Shown piece after piece: positions 27,645-35,548 of a stretch of 64,000 nt of DNA (its first letter is position 1; every line of letters starts with the position of its first letter). This DNA comes from Chryseobacterium shigense. GTDB taxonomy: Bacteria > Bacteroidota > Bacteroidia > Flavobacteriales > Weeksellaceae. The DNA is taken from NCBI RefSeq assembly GCF_014207845.1, contig NZ_JACHLC010000008.1:1-64000 (forward strand), in the 5' to 3' direction. Both the position numbers and the translations under genes were made by a program. The notes beneath the pieces were generated by a model. The model worked only from the letters and a program-made list of their open reading frames with translations, ran no database searches and was not told the DNA's origin.

Positions 27645-29510
27645 ATGAAGAAAACTTTCCTTTATGGAGCAATGTTGTGTTCACTTTCATTAGTTGCACA
27701 ACAGCAGCAGCAACAGCAGCAGAAAATCTGTGGTTTCGATCAGGAGTTACAATTACAGGATAAAACAATCCCTGGAGTAAGACAGATTTTTGATAAAGTT
27801 ATCCAAAATATTCAGGCCGAAAGAATGGCCAATCCTTCAGCAGCTGCTAAAGGAACTGTGAATGGCGTTTATGAAATTCCTGTGGTAGTTCACGTTATTG
27901 AAGGCAGTAATGCTTCGTTCACAAGAACTGACGCACAGATTCAGCAATGGTTGGATAATGCCAACAAAATGTATGCGGGAACTTATGCCTGGCCTGCGTC
28001 TGGTGTACCTTCAGATTTCGGAACGTCAGCGGTATTCCCGATTAAATTGGTTTTGGCCAAAAGAGATCCGAACTGTAATGCTACAACAGGTATTGTAAGA
28101 TATAACGGAAGCTCATTGTCCGGTTATAATACATCCGGAATGGCTTACCAAACATCAAATGGAGCAACCAGAGCTGCTATCAAAGGGCTGGCTCCACACT
28201 GGCCGGAAGCTTCTTATTTTAATATTTATGTAATTACTACATTTGACGGGAGTACAACACCTAACTCAGGTCTGATGGGGTTTGCTGCATTCCCTAATAA
28301 CCTTGATTCTAATTATGAGTCATTTATGAAAACCGGGGTCGTAACCAAAGCTCATGACACAACATTTGCACACGAGTTTGGGCATGCAATGGGATTATAC
28401 CATACCTTCCAAAATGGTCGATATGATGCCGTTCCTGCTGATTCGGATTATTGTCCGGCTACTACCGGTGTTTGTACTACTGATGATGATAAGGTTTGTG
28501 ATACCGAAAGATCAGGAAGCGGTTACTATGCATGGCCGGTTCCTTCTAATTCATCAATTAACTCATGTACCGGTGTAAACTATCAGGGAGTACAGTATAA
28601 TATGATGAATTACTCTAATTCTGTTGCCCAGAAATTTACTGCTGGACAGGGACAGAGAATTAATGACTCCTTTATGCTGTTCAGAAGCAGTCTTACAACT
28701 TCACAAACCGGTAATGCATTACCTGCTACTCCGGCACCATCAGTTGTTCCGATTGCCGCTTGTTCGCCTTCAGGTTTAGCTAATCCGGGGAATTATTTAG
28801 CCGGTCCGGTTTCTGTAAAATTAGGACAAATAGATAATGCATCTCCGGGATATTGGGCGGCGCATGCTTTGTATTATGTAGATTATACAACGAAAGCATG
28901 TTCTATGAAAATATATACTCCGCTAGTAGTTAATCAACAACAAACTGTTGAGGTAGGAATTTTTCAGAATTCCCAGTCTGTACGTGTTTGGATAGATTAT
29001 AACAACAACGGAACTTTTGAAGCAAGTGAACTGGTAGCTTCCGGAGATGATGTGCCTCTTGGAACAAATCTGTACGGAACCTTTACCGCAAACTTTACTC
29101 CTCCGGCTACGGCAACCTTAAATACACCGTTAAGAATGAGAGTTATTGCTGATGCTGATTCTCCTAGTTTATTCGCGCCATGTGGGCAGCTTGGATATGG
29201 TCAGGCTGAGGATTATGTTGTGAAATTAGTTACTACTTTGGGAACAAGCGAAGTGAAGGCAGACAATAACGATCTTGTGATCTATCCTAACCCTGTTGCA
29301 ACAGGTGATAAAGTATTTATCAAAGCTAAAAACGGTAAGGATCTGAAAGTTTCTATCTCCGATATGTCAGGAAGATTGGTAGCAAGCCCGTCTGTAACTG
29401 AAGAAGGAAGCGGAATCTACAGAGTAAACCAGCAGCTTGAAAAAGGAGTTTATATGGTTCAGATTTCCAACGGAAAAGACAGTAAAACATCTAAACTGAT
29501 TATTAAATAA
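27645..29510 (+). CDS. Secreted M43-type (pappalysin-like) metalloprotease with T9SS type A sorting domain
   Basis: A 621-residue exported zinc protease. After a signal peptide (about 1-18) comes a run of eight glutamines starting near residue 19. The zinc motif HEFGHAMGLYH is at 243-253 with Glu244 as catalytic base, and MMNYS downstream is a plausible Met-turn. A beta domain follows with GYGQAEDYVVKL, a GEVED-like module (about 440-530). The last 80 residues are a Por secretion (T9SS type A) domain: DLVIYPNPVATGDKVFIKA, ending SKLIIK. The protein is thus probably secreted or held at the cell surface. Family substrates vary; this one is unknown. Confidence 0.93.
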   Translation: MKKTFLYGAMLCSLSLVAQQQQQQQQKICGFDQELQLQDKTIPGVRQIFDKVIQNIQAERMANPSAAAKGTVNGVYEIPVVVHVIEGSNASFTRTDAQIQQWLDNANKMYAGTYAWPASGVPSDFGTSAVFPIKLVLAKRDPNCNATTGIVRYNGSSLSGYNTSGMAYQTSNGATRAAIKGLAPHWPEASYFNIYVITTFDGSTTPNSGLMGFAAFPNNLDSNYESFMKTGVVTKAHDTTFAHEFGHAMGLYHTFQNGRYDAVPADSDYCPATTGVCTTDDDKVCDTERSGSGYYAWPVPSNSSINSCTGVNYQGVQYNMMNYSNSVAQKFTAGQGQRINDSFMLFRSSLTTSQTGNALPATPAPSVVPIAACSPSGLANPGNYLAGPVSVKLGQIDNASPGYWAAHALYYVDYTTKACSMKIYTPLVVNQQQTVEVGIFQNSQSVRVWIDYNNNGTFEASELVASGDDVPLGTNLYGTFTANFTPPATATLNTPLRMRVIADADSPSLFAPCGQLGYGQAEDYVVKLVTTLGTSEVKADNNDLVIYPNPVATGDKVFIKAKNGKDLKVSISDMSGRLVASPSVTEEGSGIYRVNQQLEKGVYMVQISNGKDSKTSKLIIK

Positions 29511-29864: not shown

Positions 29865-30548
29865 CTATTTTTTCACGAATTTAAATTCATGAGATTCAAA
29901 ATTTTTCGTGACGATTTTTAAAACATAAACTCCGGTAGAAAGAGAAGATACATTGATTTTTTCATCGAACGCTTCAGATCTTATCATTTGCCCGTCCAAA
30001 TTATAGATTTGCGTTGTCTGCCCATTGTCAATTCCTGAAATTCGGATAACATCTGAAACAGGGTTCGGGAAAATCTGGATTTTAGATTTTGTAAGATCTG
30101 ATGTTCCCAGTGAAGAACTGTGTACATCTCCTGTCATGGTAGAGTTTGTTCCCGTAAGATTTCCTCCACATTGGCCGGTAGTTATTGCTGTATTTTCTAT
30201 CCATGTTCCAAATGTATTGCTTGGTGGTCGCTGGCTGCCATTGTTCCCCGTTGAATTATAATAGATCAGGGAAGGAGTGGTAAAGGTTCCGTTTCCTTCA
30301 TCGGCAATAAATTCCCATCTGGTAAGGGTATTGTTCCACTGGATTTTAAATTCACAGGTTCCAAGACCTCCGCAAGGCTGCCCGTCAACCGGTGTTGTAA
30401 TATAAATACCTTTATTGTAAGAATCAACCCCGGTTTTTGTAAATATAAAATTCTGATTGTCAAATAAATTATGACATCCGTTGAAGGTAATAGTCTGCGC
30501 GACCAATGAACTTCCAAAAGCTATGGCTAATAAGTATAGAGCTTTCAT
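29865..30548 (-). CDS. Secreted T9SS type A cargo protein
   Basis: A 227-residue exported protein with a signal peptide (about 1-17). The middle has five cysteines (C24, and a CGGLGTC pair) and an all-beta look. The final 75 residues are a Por secretion domain: SKIQIFPNPVSDVIRISG, through to HEFKFVKK. It is downstream of the tail-collar gene by 6 bases and so probably co-expressed with it. The N-terminal domain of about 150 residues is not recognised; beta-sandwich ligand binding is possible. Confidence 0.83.
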   Translation of the reverse strand: MKALYLLAIAFGSSLVAQTITFNGCHNLFDNQNFIFTKTGVDSYNKGIYITTPVDGQPCGGLGTCEFKIQWNNTLTRWEFIADEGNGTFTTPSLIYYNSTGNNGSQRPPSNTFGTWIENTAITTGQCGGNLTGTNSTMTGDVHSSSLGTSDLTKSKIQIFPNPVSDVIRISGIDNGQTTQIYNLDGQMIRSEAFDEKINVSSLSTGVYVLKIVTKNFESHEFKFVKK

Positions 30549-30554
30549 AACCTG

Positions 30555-31145
30555 TTAGTTAAAAGATGGATAAATACCTTGTAATGCTATAATACATCTC
30601 ATGGTAACAAACGGAGGCCTGTTTTCATGGGGCTGAGATCCTCCAGCCGGATTGACCATAGTAGCTTTCATGGTTGTGTTGGCATTGACATCAGAATATT
30701 CTTTGTCTAAAAGTTTGGTGTCTGCAGGGAGATTTCCTGTAGGAGTATTCTGATTGCCTTCTGCTGTTACAGCATTTACGGTATGGTTATGGGCAGGCAT
30801 CTGCTGCTGTGTCAGCGTTACTGTTTCGCTTCCTCCTGTTTCACCTATCAGGTAGTTCTGAGAATTGGCAGGTCCTTGTCCCTGAGAAATAAGAACTCTT
30901 CCTCTCATATCAGGCAGGGCAAAAGTAGTGGTTCCGTTACCTCCATAAGTGGTTCCCAATAATGAAAAAAGGGCCTGGTTCTGTGCTATTGACAATAACT
31001 GCCCGTTGCAGTCTGCCCATCCGTTGGGTGCTCTGTTATAGGGTACAAAAGCGATCTGTCCAAGGAATGGTTCTGCCTGTGCTTTTAGAGTAGAAATGAA
31101 TGCACTGCTTACCAGCAGCGTACATGCTAAAATTAAGTTTTTCAT
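30555..31145 (-). CDS. Secreted phage-tail-collar (microcystin-dependent-protein-like) protein
   Basis: A 196-residue protein of the tail-collar family (PF07484, as in MdpB-like proteins). Blocks are visible: EPFLGQIAFVPYNRAPNGWADCNGQLL from about residue 26, LFSLLGTTYGGNGTTTFALP, GRVLISQG, and the MPAHNHTV turn near residue 118. It has a signal peptide (about 1-23), unlike a phage tail fibre, so it probably acts outside the cytoplasm. It heads a two-gene unit with a T9SS cargo 6 bases downstream. No other phage gene is nearby, so a domesticated or non-phage origin is likely. Confidence 0.9.
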   Translation of the reverse strand: MKNLILACTLLVSSAFISTLKAQAEPFLGQIAFVPYNRAPNGWADCNGQLLSIAQNQALFSLLGTTYGGNGTTTFALPDMRGRVLISQGQGPANSQNYLIGETGGSETVTLTQQQMPAHNHTVNAVTAEGNQNTPTGNLPADTKLLDKEYSDVNANTTMKATMVNPAGGSQPHENRPPFVTMRCIIALQGIYPSFN

Positions 31146-31202: not shown

Positions 31203-31232
31203 GAAAAAACCTTTCAGAATTAACCGAAAGGT
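31203..31232 (-). terminator. Terminator of the DUF4407-protease unit
   Basis: Stem ACCTTTC/GAAAGGT (31209-31215, 31226-31232), a 10-base loop and six T residues on the minus strand, 43 bases after the protease stop. Confidence 0.8.
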
Positions 31233-31274: not shown

Positions 31275-33137
31275 CTATTGACCAAGCATCTTGTGATATT
31301 CTGCAATATGAAGATACCCTTCTTCTTTAATGTTCACCTCGAGTCGGTGTTTTTTTGCAGCCAGATAAATCTCATTAGGCGACATGCTTCCTTTTTTGCT
31401 GAGTTCAATACTCATATCTTTCAGCAGGTCTAAATGGAGAATAAGATCTTCCTTCGTTTTTTTGGCGAGATCCTGCATCAGTCTTTCAATCTTTTTATCT
31501 GTGATATCATGCTGCATGCGGTGCGGATATTCTTCCAGGCTGTATGTTGCCTGGTATTCTTCATCAAAACCGTATTTTCTGACATAATCTGTGGCAAGCA
31601 TGGTAGCTTGTTCCCTGTCGTGGCTTCTTCCTATGCTTGCATTATTTTCTCCAAAAACAATTTCTTCAGCAATACCTCCGGCCAGATAGATTTTAATCCT
31701 GTCCAGCAAGCTCTCTTTTGTGTCATGAATCTGATGTGGAAAGGTAAACCCTGCGGCATAGCTGCTGGCCACTTTACTTTTCAGCTGCAATGGGGCGAAA
31801 CCTGTATACAGCATATAGGAAACGGCGTGTCCGCATTCATGAACACTGATGTTGGCCACTGCATCTTGTTGATTGGATTGGCGTATTTTGTCGATTCTCC
31901 CGGTGTAAGGGATCTTAATAATACGGTTTCCTATTTTCCCTGTAATTGTTTTCTGTTTGACAGGATAATCAATTTCAATGGTTTTATCATCGTTGATGAC
32001 GGCTTCAAATAGAAATTTGCTGAGGTTGGTGTCCAGGATATCTACCACACTGCTGAATACGGGACGTACGCCCTGTACGGGAAATACACCATTCCTGTAG
32101 ATCAGCTCATTAATGCTTTTGTTGATTTTTAAACTGATCCCGAATTTTGTTTTCGTTTTGGTTTTAAGATTATTGATTTCCCGTTGAATAAGTTCCTGGA
32201 AATCTTCTGTTTTCAGTGAAAAATAAATCAAATGAATATTTCCGAACCTGGCTACCTGCTCCGGCCTGAATTTTCTTGATAATGCATTTTTAATGTCAAC
32301 AACAGTTATTTTCTTTGTGAATGCATGGTAAATGTTGGCATCTATATCTGCTTCACTGGTTTCGCGGGACATCTGAAAGGCTTCATCAAGGTTTCCGCTG
32401 ATGATAATCAGCATTTTGCTGTAATCTACCGGCTCATAGATCTTCTTTTCTTTTTGTTTCTTCAGGATCAGCTTGATCATGTCTTCCTCCTTCATATCAA
32501 TAATGCTCATCACATCATCTTCCATGCTGAGGTACTTTTTCAGTTCTTTTGCGTCCCAGAGGTTCAGGTATGGGTTTTCATCCACTTCCGTTTCACCGCT
32601 TGTCTTACGCCGCTCGTTTTCCTTTTTTCTTAAAAGATAGGAGAAAAGGTAATGTTCAAGATCATCACGCTCTCTTTTGCTTAACCTGCCATCACTTAAA
32701 AGCTCCCAGAAATCCGTGAACTTTGTCTGTGGAACAGGAGTTCCGTCAGGATCAATGGTATTAAAACGCTGGATCTCGTCAAAAAGGACGATGCTCGGTT
32801 TCTCATCATTGAGACGGTTACTCTGAAAAATATCGGAAACACTTTTGCTCCATGAGGTTTCATCGCTGTTGCTGAGTTCTATCTCTACAAAACGGTTTTG
32901 GAATTCCAGGAACCGGACAGTTTTCCGCACAAGATCTGTCTTTCCCACACCCGTCATTCCCCATAGATTGATTACTACGGGACGGGTCAGAATTTCAGGC
33001 ATCAGGTACCATATCTGTATGTATTCCATTAAATCATCAATAATCTTATCAATTCCGATGAATTCTTTTTTCAGGAATGCCGTACAGTCGTCCAGTTTTT
33101 TCTTTTTCTTCCGGATCTCTTCTTTATCAATAATCAT
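31275..33137 (-). CDS. ClpB-type AAA+ ATPase fused to an FtsH-type (M41) zinc peptidase
   Basis: A 620-residue protein with no membrane helix. Residues about 30-400 are a AAA+ module: Walker A GMTGVGKT (60-67), Walker B VLFDEIQ with D120 and E121. The C-terminal AAA part has RKFRPEQVARFG and a sensor-2-like GVRPVFSSVVDILD, the layout of the second ATPase domain of ClpA/ClpB rather than FtsH. Residues about 425-600 are an M41-like peptidase: HECGH at 433-437 supplies two zinc ligands and the catalytic glutamate, and AGGIAEEIVFGE plus GRSHDREQAT match the FtsH third-ligand region. It lies 14 bases after a DUF4407 membrane gene. An unfoldase-protease tethered by that partner is inferred. Confidence 0.86.
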   Translation of the reverse strand: MIIDKEEIRKKKKKLDDCTAFLKKEFIGIDKIIDDLMEYIQIWYLMPEILTRPVVINLWGMTGVGKTDLVRKTVRFLEFQNRFVEIELSNSDETSWSKSVSDIFQSNRLNDEKPSIVLFDEIQRFNTIDPDGTPVPQTKFTDFWELLSDGRLSKRERDDLEHYLFSYLLRKKENERRKTSGETEVDENPYLNLWDAKELKKYLSMEDDVMSIIDMKEEDMIKLILKKQKEKKIYEPVDYSKMLIIISGNLDEAFQMSRETSEADIDANIYHAFTKKITVVDIKNALSRKFRPEQVARFGNIHLIYFSLKTEDFQELIQREINNLKTKTKTKFGISLKINKSINELIYRNGVFPVQGVRPVFSSVVDILDTNLSKFLFEAVINDDKTIEIDYPVKQKTITGKIGNRIIKIPYTGRIDKIRQSNQQDAVANISVHECGHAVSYMLYTGFAPLQLKSKVASSYAAGFTFPHQIHDTKESLLDRIKIYLAGGIAEEIVFGENNASIGRSHDREQATMLATDYVRKYGFDEEYQATYSLEEYPHRMQHDITDKKIERLMQDLAKKTKEDLILHLDLLKDMSIELSKKGSMSPNEIYLAAKKHRLEVNIKEEGYLHIAEYHKMLGQ

Positions 33138-33151
33138 GCGCGAAAAATACG

Positions 33152-34222
33152 CTATTTTTTTAAATTATCCTTAAAATCATCAATCCTGAAATCGGTTAAA
33201 GCATTTCCTTTTTCAATTTTTTCTTTAGAATAGAGCCTGAAATCATTTTCCGTCTTTTCTAAAAGGTAATCATAAGGGCCAACGTGGGAAATTAATTTTA
33301 CCAAAACGGGGGAAATCTCAAGACATATAAAAAGCCCCATGATAAACGCTGCGGCTAATCCGATAATTGCCGAATTTTTACCCAGTTCATCCAAAGCCTG
33401 CAGCCTTGCCGCAAATCCATTGAATTTATCTTCAAAAGTGTCTGAAGTTTTTCTTTCTGTTTCAAGATTTGTGTACACTTTGGATATTTCTTTATCCAGA
33501 TACTCCAATCTGGAAGCGTTTTGTTTCTGAAAATCCTCCAGGTCCTTACGGCGCTGTTCTTTCAATTCCTGCTTACGTTTTGCGTTGGGGCCATACCCCT
33601 CTTTTCCGCTGGTAAGCCCGGACTGTTTTCCAAGAATTTCCTTTTCAAGTTCTACAGCTGCTGAGTCATAAGCTTTCTGGTATTGTACGGTTTTTTCGGC
33701 AATCTGCTTTTTTTCGATTTCAAATGGTCCGCTTTGTTGCAGGATTCTGCCGCTCATTTCTCCCTGAAGCTGTTTTTTATTTCTCTGGATAATGGTGTTA
33801 AGCTGTTTATTAACCTCTTTTTCAAAAATTTTAAGCTCCAGAGGTTTAGAAATAATAATTCCTAAAAATGTTGCCAAAATCAGACGGGGAATAGACATTA
33901 AAACCTGGTTCCACCACGTTCCTGTTTTTTTGATAGAGGAAACGATATAACGGTCCAGATTGAAGATCATCAGTCCCCACAGAATTCCAAATCCTACAGA
34001 GGTCCAAATGTTATCAAATACCGTATACATGGCATAGCCCGCAGATAAAGTTGCAAATACAGCGGTGAATAATACGATCCCGCCAATACCTGAAAATTTA
34101 TTCCATTCGCTTGGGGTCTTTCTCAAAATATGAATGTTTCCTCCGGAGCATACCATCAGAAACTTCTGGAACCAGTTTATTTTGTGATTCGATTGATTTA
34201 TAGTTTGTTGGTTTGTTTTCAT
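33152..34222 (-). CDS. DUF4407 integral membrane protein with periplasmic or cytoplasmic coiled coil
   Basis: A 356-residue protein of the DUF4407 family. Four membrane helices are seen: two near residues 45-95 (including GIVLFTAVFATLSAGYAMY and GFGILWGLMIFNLDRYIV), one near 110-130 (PRLILATFLGIIISKPL), and one near 290-310 (AIIGLAAAFIMGLFICLE). Between the third and fourth is a long charged coiled coil (about 130-280). The ATG at 34222 was chosen; a longer frame starts at a TTG that belongs to a promoter box. The gene is followed by the AAA-M41 protease at 14 bases. The pair suggests a membrane anchor or sensor for the protease. The function of the family is not known. Confidence 0.86.
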   Translation of the reverse strand: MKTNQQTINQSNHKINWFQKFLMVCSGGNIHILRKTPSEWNKFSGIGGIVLFTAVFATLSAGYAMYTVFDNIWTSVGFGILWGLMIFNLDRYIVSSIKKTGTWWNQVLMSIPRLILATFLGIIISKPLELKIFEKEVNKQLNTIIQRNKKQLQGEMSGRILQQSGPFEIEKKQIAEKTVQYQKAYDSAAVELEKEILGKQSGLTSGKEGYGPNAKRKQELKEQRRKDLEDFQKQNASRLEYLDKEISKVYTNLETERKTSDTFEDKFNGFAARLQALDELGKNSAIIGLAAAFIMGLFICLEISPVLVKLISHVGPYDYLLEKTENDFRLYSKEKIEKGNALTDFRIDDFKDNLKK

Positions 34223-34237
34223 AACTGAAAATTTATA

Positions 34238-34264
34238 CAAATGTAGTACTAAAAATCATACCAA
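34238..34264 (-). promoter_or_regulatory. Likely promoter of the DUF4407-protease unit
   Basis: The minus strand reads TACATTTG (34245-34238) with TTG (34264-34262) 16 bases upstream, one short of the usual spacing. The transcript would begin within about 15 bases of the ATG. Confidence 0.52.
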
Positions 34265-34409: not shown

Positions 34410-34964
34410 TCATTTCACCCTATCCGGATTCTGCTTCAAAAAACTATCCCATCCGGTATAAGATTTTGTATCTGCTATGGTTCCGGAATTAAAATGATGA
34501 CAAACCGCAACCGCCAGACCATCCGAGGCATCCAGGTATTTGGTAGGGAATTCTTTCAGGTTTAAAAGATTCTGAAGCATTCCTGCTACCTGTTCTTTAC
34601 TGGCATTTCCGTTCCCGGTGATCGCCATTTTGATCTTTTTTGGTGAATATTCCGTAATAGGAATATTTCTGTAAAGGCTTGCAGCCATTGCGACTCCTTG
34701 GGCACGGCCAAGTTTAAGCATACTTTGTACATTTTTACCATAAAATGGCGCTTCCAGAGCCACTTCATCAGGGTGATACTCATCGATCAACGCTAACGTT
34801 TTGTCGAAGATATATTTCAGTTTTGTTTCATGGTTGGGATATTTTTTCAGGATCAGTTCGTGAATAGAAACCATTTCCATTTTGCTTTTTTTCACGGAAA
34901 TAATCCCGAAGCCCATAATGGTTGTCCCGGGATCAATACCTAAAATTATCTTCTCTGAAATCAT
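34410..34964 (-). CDS. ruvC: Crossover junction endodeoxyribonuclease RuvC
   Basis: A 184-residue enzyme that cuts Holliday junctions after RuvAB branch migration. The catalytic start ILGIDPGT places the first acidic residue at Asp11; VALEAPFYGKN holds the second (near residue 70), and DASDGLAVAVCHHF near residue 150 the last pair. Length is normal. It is a separate unit from the DUF4407 gene, with a TATCTTTG box five bases before the ATG, which would leave a very short leader. Confidence 0.97.
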   Translation of the reverse strand: MISEKIILGIDPGTTIMGFGIISVKKSKMEMVSIHELILKKYPNHETKLKYIFDKTLALIDEYHPDEVALEAPFYGKNVQSMLKLGRAQGVAMAASLYRNIPITEYSPKKIKMAITGNGNASKEQVAGMLQNLLNLKEFPTKYLDASDGLAVAVCHHFNSGTIADTKSYTGWDSFLKQNPDRVK

Positions 34965-35026: not shown

Positions 35027-35548
35027 TTATTGTAAATACTTTTCAGCAATCGGAACCCATTTCCCATCATGACGCAGAAGCAGAATTTTATCGACTAAAA
35101 ATTTAGTTTTATATGTTTTGTTCCTGTAAACATCCCATGCTTTCAGATAATTATCAAAACTAAGATCCCTGTATCCAACTGTCATGTGAGGGGAAAAAGA
35201 GTATTTAATGAAATTGAAATATTGCCCTACTTTTTGATGGAGTAAATTCAGATTCTCATTCATCTCAGGCTGTACAAAAATGACCGGACTTTTTGGATTG
35301 GGAAAACTTCCAAAGCCATTCAGCAATATCTCAAAAGGAGAAATTTCCGTATTAATTTTTTGAAAAGCAATATAAATGTCACTTTCAAGATCAATATCTC
35401 TGGAAAATGGGGGAAACAAAGTAATGTGAGCATCATTTTTTAATGCCTTTGAATTTTCATAATTCAAAGCTAGATCTTTTTTGAATACCTTAACCTCGTC
35501 AATGATTTCCTGAGGAGGATAGATCGCAATGAAGTACATTTTTTTCAT
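35027..35548 (-). CDS. 2'-5' RNA ligase/2H phosphoesterase family protein
   Basis: A 173-residue protein with the two HxT/S motifs of the 2H superfamily: HITL at 41-44 and HMTV at 121-124. These pair histidines in one active site that cleaves or joins 2',3'-cyclic or 2'-5' phosphoester bonds in RNA or nucleotides. The rest of the fold, including FGSFPNPKSPVIFVQ, agrees with the family. It begins just after the serine hydrolase gene on the same strand, 9 bases apart. The substrate is unknown. Confidence 0.88.
   Translation of the reverse strand: MKKMYFIAIYPPQEIIDEVKVFKKDLALNYENSKALKNDAHITLFPPFSRDIDLESDIYIAFQKINTEISPFEILLNGFGSFPNPKSPVIFVQPEMNENLNLLHQKVGQYFNFIKYSFSPHMTVGYRDLSFDNYLKAWDVYRNKTYKTKFLVDKILLLRHDGKWVPIAEKYLQ

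Follow-up and report, generated by a model that had tools for sequence, protein, structure and literature searches.

The well-known architectures of energy-dependent proteases are those of Clp, Lon, HslUV, FtsH and the proteasome type; among them Lon resembles the protein considered here in joining a soluble AAA+ motor to a C-terminally fused peptidase. The DNA analysed is a stretch of 64,000 nucleotides from Chryseobacterium shigense (contig NZ_JACHLC010000008.1, positions 1 to 64,000), referred to below as the window. On its reverse strand, directly behind a gene for a DUF4407 membrane protein, it encodes a 620-residue fusion protein in which an AAA+ module of the ClpA/ClpB D2 type precedes an FtsH-type M41 zinc peptidase. 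One soluble chain that carries both a ClpB-type motor and an FtsH peptidase is a further combination beyond the well-known ones. From sequence comparison we consider it probable that the fusion acts as a soluble, single-chain ATP-dependent zinc metalloprotease of a family common to large tailed phages and bacteria, in which the bacterial copies are phage-derived and have a role in stress or conflict.

The domain composition given in the original prediction, which was made from the letters of the DNA, is borne out by Pfam and by profile comparison with hhalign. Pfam matches are to Peptidase_M41 (3.6e-15), AAA_2 (1.4e-6) and ClpB_D2-small (1.6e-5), as well as to AAA, and the motifs stand as they had been written: GMTGVGKT at residues 60-67, DE at 120-121, HECGH at 433-437 and QGVRP with R358. 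Both modules occur in a single chain in all 104 aligned members of the family, and the fusion is therefore no frame artefact. In NCBIfam the window protein matches FtsH on its M41 part with 49.2 bits (equivalog cut-off 600) and ClpB on its AAA part with 45.2 bits (cut-off 1232); over 45 aligned members at E ≤ 1e-5, FtsH_fam is matched by all 45 and ClpB by 38.

The type of the AAA+ module follows from comparison of the family profile with single AAA modules taken from the window's own genome. ClpB D2 gives 97.6% (E 3e-12) over 283 columns and the other D2 modules 97.1% (TssH1), 96.0% (ClpC) and 95.9% (TssH2) over 88-115 columns; values for RarA (95.8%, 67 columns) and Lon (93.9%, 123 columns) lie somewhat lower, and the FtsH AAA module gives 55.8% over just 65 columns. 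An AAA+ tree, proposed as a check with the original prediction, yields a maximum-likelihood position of low support, and for this reason the placement is taken from the profile comparison; the tree data do, however, exclude a grouping with the FtsH AAA module (approximately unbiased (AU) test, p 0.034, with 5000 replicates, a number that the program considers too low). A paralogue of FtsH is ruled out by this test, by the 65-column alignment and by missing N-terminal helices.

The absence of a membrane helix, also part of the original prediction, is confirmed by hydropathy: the highest 19-residue Kyte-Doolittle mean is 1.16 in the fusion and 2.67 in the FtsH of the same genome. Segments reaching 1.6 or more occur in 22 of the 104 members, all at residues 437-538, and by hydropathy none of the 104 has an N-terminal hydrophobic segment where FtsH has its helices. 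The supposition that no system of this form had been described agrees with the family libraries searched (Pfam, NCBIfam, PADLOC and PHROGs), in which the whole fusion is undescribed. Sequence searches of solved structures (the best 60 for the profile) gave no best stretch spanning a ClpB-type AAA and an M41 domain, and among the open-licence matches listed for DUF4407, AAA-M41, ClpB, PrfH-RtcB, jumbo-phage FtsH and WYL-protease topics, no title or abstract describes the fusion. The fusion constitutes a separate family.

Bacterial members were collected by a scan of genome contigs, from which the best 80 of 162 relatives were kept; the bacterial counts refer to these 80. Named relatives that are 82-95% identical to the window protein belong to Chryseobacterium. 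Subfamily 1, which includes the window protein, comprises Chryseobacterium, Cloacibacterium, Arcicella, Neolewinella, Flectobacillus, Thiothrix, Methylophaga, metagenome-assembled genomes (MAGs) of Planctomycetota and Actinomycetes, and others, while subfamily 2, ∼30% identical to the window protein, is mostly from Bacteroidota. The distribution is sporadic in Bacteroidota with a few other phyla, and branches cross phyla, as where the named strain Thiothrix lacustris groups with a Chitinophagales MAG (0.895); cross-phylum cases that involve MAGs may be contamination.

Ten residues, K66, D120, E121, N249, R297, R358, H433, E434, H437 and D507, are invariant in all 51 bacterial homologues from outside Chryseobacterium, 19 of them from the window's subfamily and 32 from subfamily 2. 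The same ten are present in 49 of 49 viral members, except that E121 is kept in 48 and replaced by Asp in one. We take residues 60-67 to be Walker A, D120 and E121 Walker B, N249 sensor 1, R297 the Arg finger and R358 sensor 2, and we assume for H433, E434, H437 and D507 the zinc-binding and catalytic roles of their FtsH counterparts. Against eight relatives the nonsynonymous divergence (dN) of the gene is 0.038-0.11; synonymous divergence (dS), computable in five of the eight comparisons, is 1.36-2.43 and near saturation, and in these five dN/dS is ∼0.02-0.04. By this measure the gene is under strong purifying selection, a constraint which indicates that the protein is in use.

The family extends to viral contigs. 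A scan of IMG/VR finds the fusion at 62 loci, encoding 51 distinct proteins. The contigs concerned measure 11 to 548 kb, with 41 of the 62 loci on contigs of at least 100 kb and 19 on contigs of at least 200 kb. Searches for hallmark genes covered 50 of the 51 viral records (L261 left out). TerL exceeds its cut-off in 13, a tail sheath is matched at E ≤ 0.001 in seven (over the cut-off in three), and 16 have one or the other. Plasmid carriage was considered and rejected, since tblastn of the window protein against plasmids gave one partial match. Some viral loci also carry chaperone genes: in 4 of 51 the fusion has DnaK next to it or close by, and in 3 of 51 DnaJ (Pfam on one locus). Three contigs, L243, L252 and L255, have the fusion followed by DnaK and DnaJ, a phage-borne chaperone-protease cluster (Pfam for L243) in which the third gene after the fusion is presumably NUDIX-like. 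One viral locus carries RtcB and another a release-factor-like gene. The terms FtsH, M41 and ClpB do not occur, by word search, in the text of a jumbo-phage survey (PMC7824862).

Trees were built from a 104-tip alignment that keeps four of the 32 Chryseobacterium sequences in addition to the window protein (L113, L223 and L236 were dropped as short). In the M41-domain tree, with two FtsH sequences as outgroup, a viral grade surrounds the window's bacterial clade (0.996) at a depth of several nodes, within a larger clade (0.971) that unites 31 viral with 24 bacterial sequences, and subfamily 2 is also intermixed with viral branches; this tree favours transfer from phage to bacterium. Midpoint rooting of the full-length tree puts the window's clade (1.0) beside viral branches (0.813). 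The labels virus and bacterium change only three times among the 104 tips of this tree, whereas 200 shuffles average 35.1 changes (minimum 28); this favours transfer on few occasions. Most likely, as far as the trees can tell, phage-type copies gave rise to the bacterial ones two or three times. A fuller statement can be offered, with less assurance: that the fusion represents an undescribed class of ATP-dependent protease, whose single soluble chain unites a ClpB-D2 motor with an M41 peptidase and whose pore loop is non-canonical, and that this class may have radiated among very large tailed phages, some of which have it beside their own DnaK-DnaJ, and been captured two or three times by bacteria, to lie near WYL genes, behind RtcB/PrfH or, in Chryseobacterium, behind a core DUF4407 gene.

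Several observations weigh against the proposal of a phage-derived, processive protease. Neither hallmark gene is found in 34 of the 50 viral records, many of which are fragments, and the same searches match cellular control genomes (TerL in 6 of 14 and sheath in 3 of 14, presumably prophages), so that the hallmarks support the viral label without proving it. When the window protein and one viral member were compared by tblastn with 50,697 GenBank phage records, only partial matches to M41 were obtained, in 1 and 19 records for the two queries, several of which resemble host DNA by annotation or name; carriage by cultivated phages is on this ground rejected. The nodes of the M41 tree that nest the window's clade among viruses have supports of 0.149-0.902, with 0.151 and 0.224 at the basal ingroup nodes, and the full-length tree gives this clade one viral sister (0.292) and not a deep nesting. 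For the AAA+ module, the AU test leaves placements with D2, D2 plus ClpX, classic AAA, D1 and clamp loaders all possible. Lastly, the canonical GYVG pore loop 1 is absent from residues 61-200 in 104 of 104 members, for which reason threading by the fusion may differ or fail.

This last point bears on how the two modules cooperate. Rather than a processive unfoldase, the AAA+ module might be a switch through which ATP gates a metallopeptidase that is regulated and perhaps specific. Besides the missing GYVG loop, the shortened loop-1 stretch would suit a switch, as would the insertion behind Walker B, whose columns hold 56-157 residues across the 104 members. The residues of Walker A and B, sensor 1, the Arg finger and sensor 2 are nonetheless conserved; an aromatic residue is found within the shortened pore-loop region in 97 of the 104 members, where the alignment is loose, and of the 19 members of the window's subfamily from outside Chryseobacterium 18 keep W96, although it is not conserved in viral members. 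On balance we regard a switch as rather unlikely.

An AlphaFold2 model built with 45 homologues has a mean predicted local distance difference test score of 81.5 and a predicted template-modelling (TM) score of 0.71. Foldseek aligns it over ∼600 columns with the whole chain of FtsH/YME1 at a root-mean-square deviation (rmsd) of 10-15 Å, and the AAA part with ClpB NBD2 at a target-normalised TM score of 0.64-0.69 and an rmsd of 5-6 Å. The former deviation implies either that the domains are arranged differently from those in FtsH/YME1 crystals or that their arrangement in the model is uncertain. For a processive protease, which we prefer, we infer that subunits would form a ring through the ClpB-D2-type AAA+ module, with R297 acting in trans, that ATP hydrolysis would move or remodel the client, possibly by threading, and that the client would be cut in a chamber of M41 peptidase domains. 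The fusion would then be comparable in its working with an FtsH placed in the cytosol, or with a Lon whose peptidase has been exchanged.

The gene neighbours of the bacterial copies differ between the subfamilies. In subfamily 2, for which the neighbour table covers 31 of 32 loci (in L132 the main open reading frame (ORF) dropped out during the resolution of overlaps), 16 of 31 loci have a WYL regulator no more than six ORFs away from the fusion and seven have RtcB upstream of it, directly in three and with PrfH between in four; WYL, RtcB and PrfH were each identified by Pfam on one representative. A profile search finds WYL in L132 as well, and a second, distant WYL in L121. These profiles, run on the ORFs of all 83 loci, detect neither WYL nor RtcB in the 51 loci of subfamily 1, so that the linkage to RtcB and PrfH belongs to subfamily 2 only. 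Among the 19 non-Chryseobacterium loci of subfamily 1, a neighbour cluster recurs in five at most, all from one related group; the recurrent neighbours are what we take to be an HflX-like GTPase, or a second cluster.

Further genes were seen at single loci. In subfamily 2, WYL loci also hold GmrSD-like, PD-(D/E)XK and exonuclease genes (L123 4467-8911, L057 4818-6509, L056 6650-7906 and L130 4560-5777; not each copy was scanned), and these may possibly represent an undescribed type of defence locus. L117 has a second RtcB gene (1310-2716) in a locus that already contains an RtcB-fusion pair. In two gammaproteobacterial MAGs a 93-residue protein overlaps the start of the fusion by 4 bases (L098 8708-8989 and L107 6297-6578); the L107 copy has no Pfam match. 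The accessories of PrfH-RtcB given in section 2.4 of a review on release factors are TPR, nucleotidyltransferase, zinc-ribbon and charged-helix proteins, with no protease among them (PMC6514570).

These neighbours raise the question of whether the family is a bacterial anti-phage or toxin-response module, a protease under WYL control or associated with ribosome repair by RtcB/PrfH, with the phage copies as counter-measures or borrowed modules. The WYL and RtcB/PrfH linkages of subfamily 2 and the nuclease-type genes at single loci point in this direction, as do partial PADLOC matches, with 35 of 45 members matching DolB and 18 of 45 the candidate defence model PDC-M37B. The material consulted from two studies reports that WYL regulators co-localise with phage defence (PMC9122601) and that RtcB2-PrfH shields Escherichia coli from colicin E3 (PMC9223846). 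The window's own subfamily, however, lacks both WYL and RtcB, and partial DolB is the sole PADLOC match of the window protein below 0.001. RtcB is moreover present in 36 of 36 genomes of the genus irrespective of the fusion, and its co-occurrence offers no contrast by which the presence of the fusion there might be explained. A bacterial defence module of this kind seems unlikely to us, although it deserves some weight. Under phage derivation, which we favour, bacterial copies would now serve in stress or conflict responses; our best guess, drawn from what accompanies distant relatives, is that they clear damaged or foreign protein under stress or phage attack. Through the presence of the fusion on large viral contigs as well as at RtcB/PrfH and WYL loci of bacteria, proteolysis is linked with ribosome rescue and with the conflict between phage and host.

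In the window itself the neighbour is DUF4407, and the original prediction envisaged proteolysis tethered to the membrane, with the coiled-coil protein DUF4407 as the anchor or controller of the protease. The DUF4407 protein shows three to four hydrophobic segments by hydropathy; its ORF is listed from a TTG at 34240, and the ATG at 34222 gives 356 residues. ORF coordinates confirm a spacing of 14 bases between its stop and the ATG of the fusion, and in four loci an in-frame upstream ATG of the fusion would create an overlap with DUF4407. The close spacing is matched by constancy within the genus: DUF4407 adjoins the fusion at every one of the 32 named Chryseobacterium loci, and 15 of 36 genus genomes carry the fusion, always directly behind DUF4407 (the two sets share genomes and are not independent). 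Outside Chryseobacterium, in contrast, none of 48 loci has DUF4407 in the flanks, scanned up to 9 kb on each side and less on short contigs, and within the genus DUF4407 is present in all 36 genomes, 21 of which lack the fusion. A Flavobacteriaceae MAG (L091) has the fusion directly after a ruvC-like gene, with no DUF4407. The adjacency count thus disposes of the tether as a conserved system.

A wider sample gives a similar picture. In 92 of 296 genomes from Bacteroidota a DUF4407 match exceeds the cut-off; three of these 92 have a fusion match, adjacent in two. The fusion query matched seven genomes, two with ordinary FtsH by sequence, leaving at least five fusions, possibly a lower bound with at most four candidates scored per genome. 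Two of these five, both from the window's genus, lie beside DUF4407, one genome (G194) has both genes on separate contigs, and two have no DUF4407 match.

The history within the genus is consistent with local inheritance. Examination of 16 of the 21 fusion-free loci, by tblastn at E < 0.001 over at most 1.5 kb downstream, found no fusion remnant in any; in eight of the 16 the next gene resembles, on reading the sequence, the Collar-type gene found behind the fusion in the window. In a midpoint-rooted tree of ruvC and DUF4407 (14 of 36 loci yielded no ruvC), one clade holds all but one of the 15 carriers together with five non-carriers, and the remaining carrier, G322, stands apart, which suggests either an early gain with losses or two gains. 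Since presence of the fusion follows clades within the genus, its adjacency looks inherited rather than repeatedly selected. DUF4407 looks like a local neighbour and not a defining partner, and we consider a DUF4407-tethered system very unlikely; a genus-specific link in Chryseobacterium may exist, given that the short spacing is kept. The fusion would have entered, or been kept, behind a DUF4407 gene older in the genus. This result corrects a partner assignment that gene adjacency made tempting.

Transcription of the two genes had been predicted to share one promoter and one terminator. A terminator-like stem is present behind the fusion gene, whereas the promoter motif, which we liken to the consensus of the Bacteroidetes -7 element, is at chance level: TAnnTTTG occurs 89 times in the window against 78.9 expected. 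A common promoter is for this reason only plausible on the sequence, and the two genes are possibly co-transcribed. The features of the locus are collected in Table 1. Farther downstream, on the forward strand, positions 27645-29510 encode a zinc-protease-like protein carrying an HEFGH motif; we presume it to be secreted, its C-terminal stretch resembling a sorting domain of the type IX secretion system.

Table 1. Coordinates of the fusion gene, its domains and flanking features in the window
Feature	Positions	Strand	Basis
AAA+ (ClpB/ClpA-D2 type)-M41 zinc peptidase fusion, 620 aa	31275..33137	-	ORF, Pfam, invariant motifs, AlphaFold2 model
AAA+ module, residues 1-395	31953..33137	-	Pfam, conserved residues, hhalign, Foldseek
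Insertion relative to ClpB D2, ~residues 167-233, between Walker-B helix and sensor 1	32439..32639	-	hhalign
ClpB D2-small domain, residues 308-389 (within AAA+ module)		-	
M41 zinc peptidase domain, residues 429-581 (H433, E434, H437, D507)	31395..31853	-	Pfam, invariant residues
DUF4407 membrane protein, 356 aa	33152..34222	-	Pfam DUF4407 3.3e-91
Bacteroidetes -7-like motif TACATTTG, 23 nt before DUF4407 ATG; weak	34238..34245	-	
Terminator-like hairpin and T run, behind fusion gene	31209..31232	-	
ruvC, flanking gene upstream of DUF4407	34410..34964	-	
2'-5' RNA ligase/LigT-fold protein, close upstream	35027-35548	-	PF13563 1.3e-19
Collar-domain protein, downstream of fusion	30555-31145	-	PF07484 6.1e-27
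Another protein, probably secreted, downstream of locus	29865-30548	-	

Comparisons with described systems place the fusion between several of them. In PHROGs, families 4871 (ATP-dependent protease) and 30773 (unknown) give partial AAA and M41 matches in the window protein and five viral members, but the best stretch of neither covers both modules. DolB, from the Dodola defence model of PADLOC, resembles the AAA part of the window protein (E 4.5e-7), as it does the members counted above, but the match spans only ∼120 of 375 profile positions. The FtsH of the Pseudomonas jumbo phage MIJ3 is likewise a phage-borne M41 AAA protease, according to the portion of its description consulted (PMC6892783). 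This protein, gp107, is however an ordinary FtsH with an FtsH-type AAA module, 39.7% identical over 499 residues to the FtsH of the window's genome. By annotation, ftsH, clpX, clpS, clpP, clpA and dnaJ lie within ∼26 kb of MIJ3 (L264 17007-43109).

Among cellular proteases, Lon differs in its peptidase, which is of the Ser-Lys type and not a zinc M41 domain, and no Lon domain is among the Pfam matches of the fusion. With the D2 modules of ClpB, ClpC and ClpA, and with Skd3, the fusion shares an AAA+ large domain followed by ClpB_D2-small and the sensor-2 G-x-R-P motif, whereas it departs from ClpB and ClpA (Hsp100) in that its one AAA module is joined covalently to an M41 peptidase, lacks the GYVG pore loop and carries an inserted stretch after Walker B. 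FtsH and the i-AAA protease YME1 share with it an M41 peptidase C-terminal to AAA+ in one chain, with HExxH and Asp, and an overall domain order that Foldseek matches at high rmsd; from FtsH it is set apart by an AAA+ module of the ClpB-D2 type, by the lack of a membrane helix in the window protein and by a score far below the FtsH equivalog cut-off.

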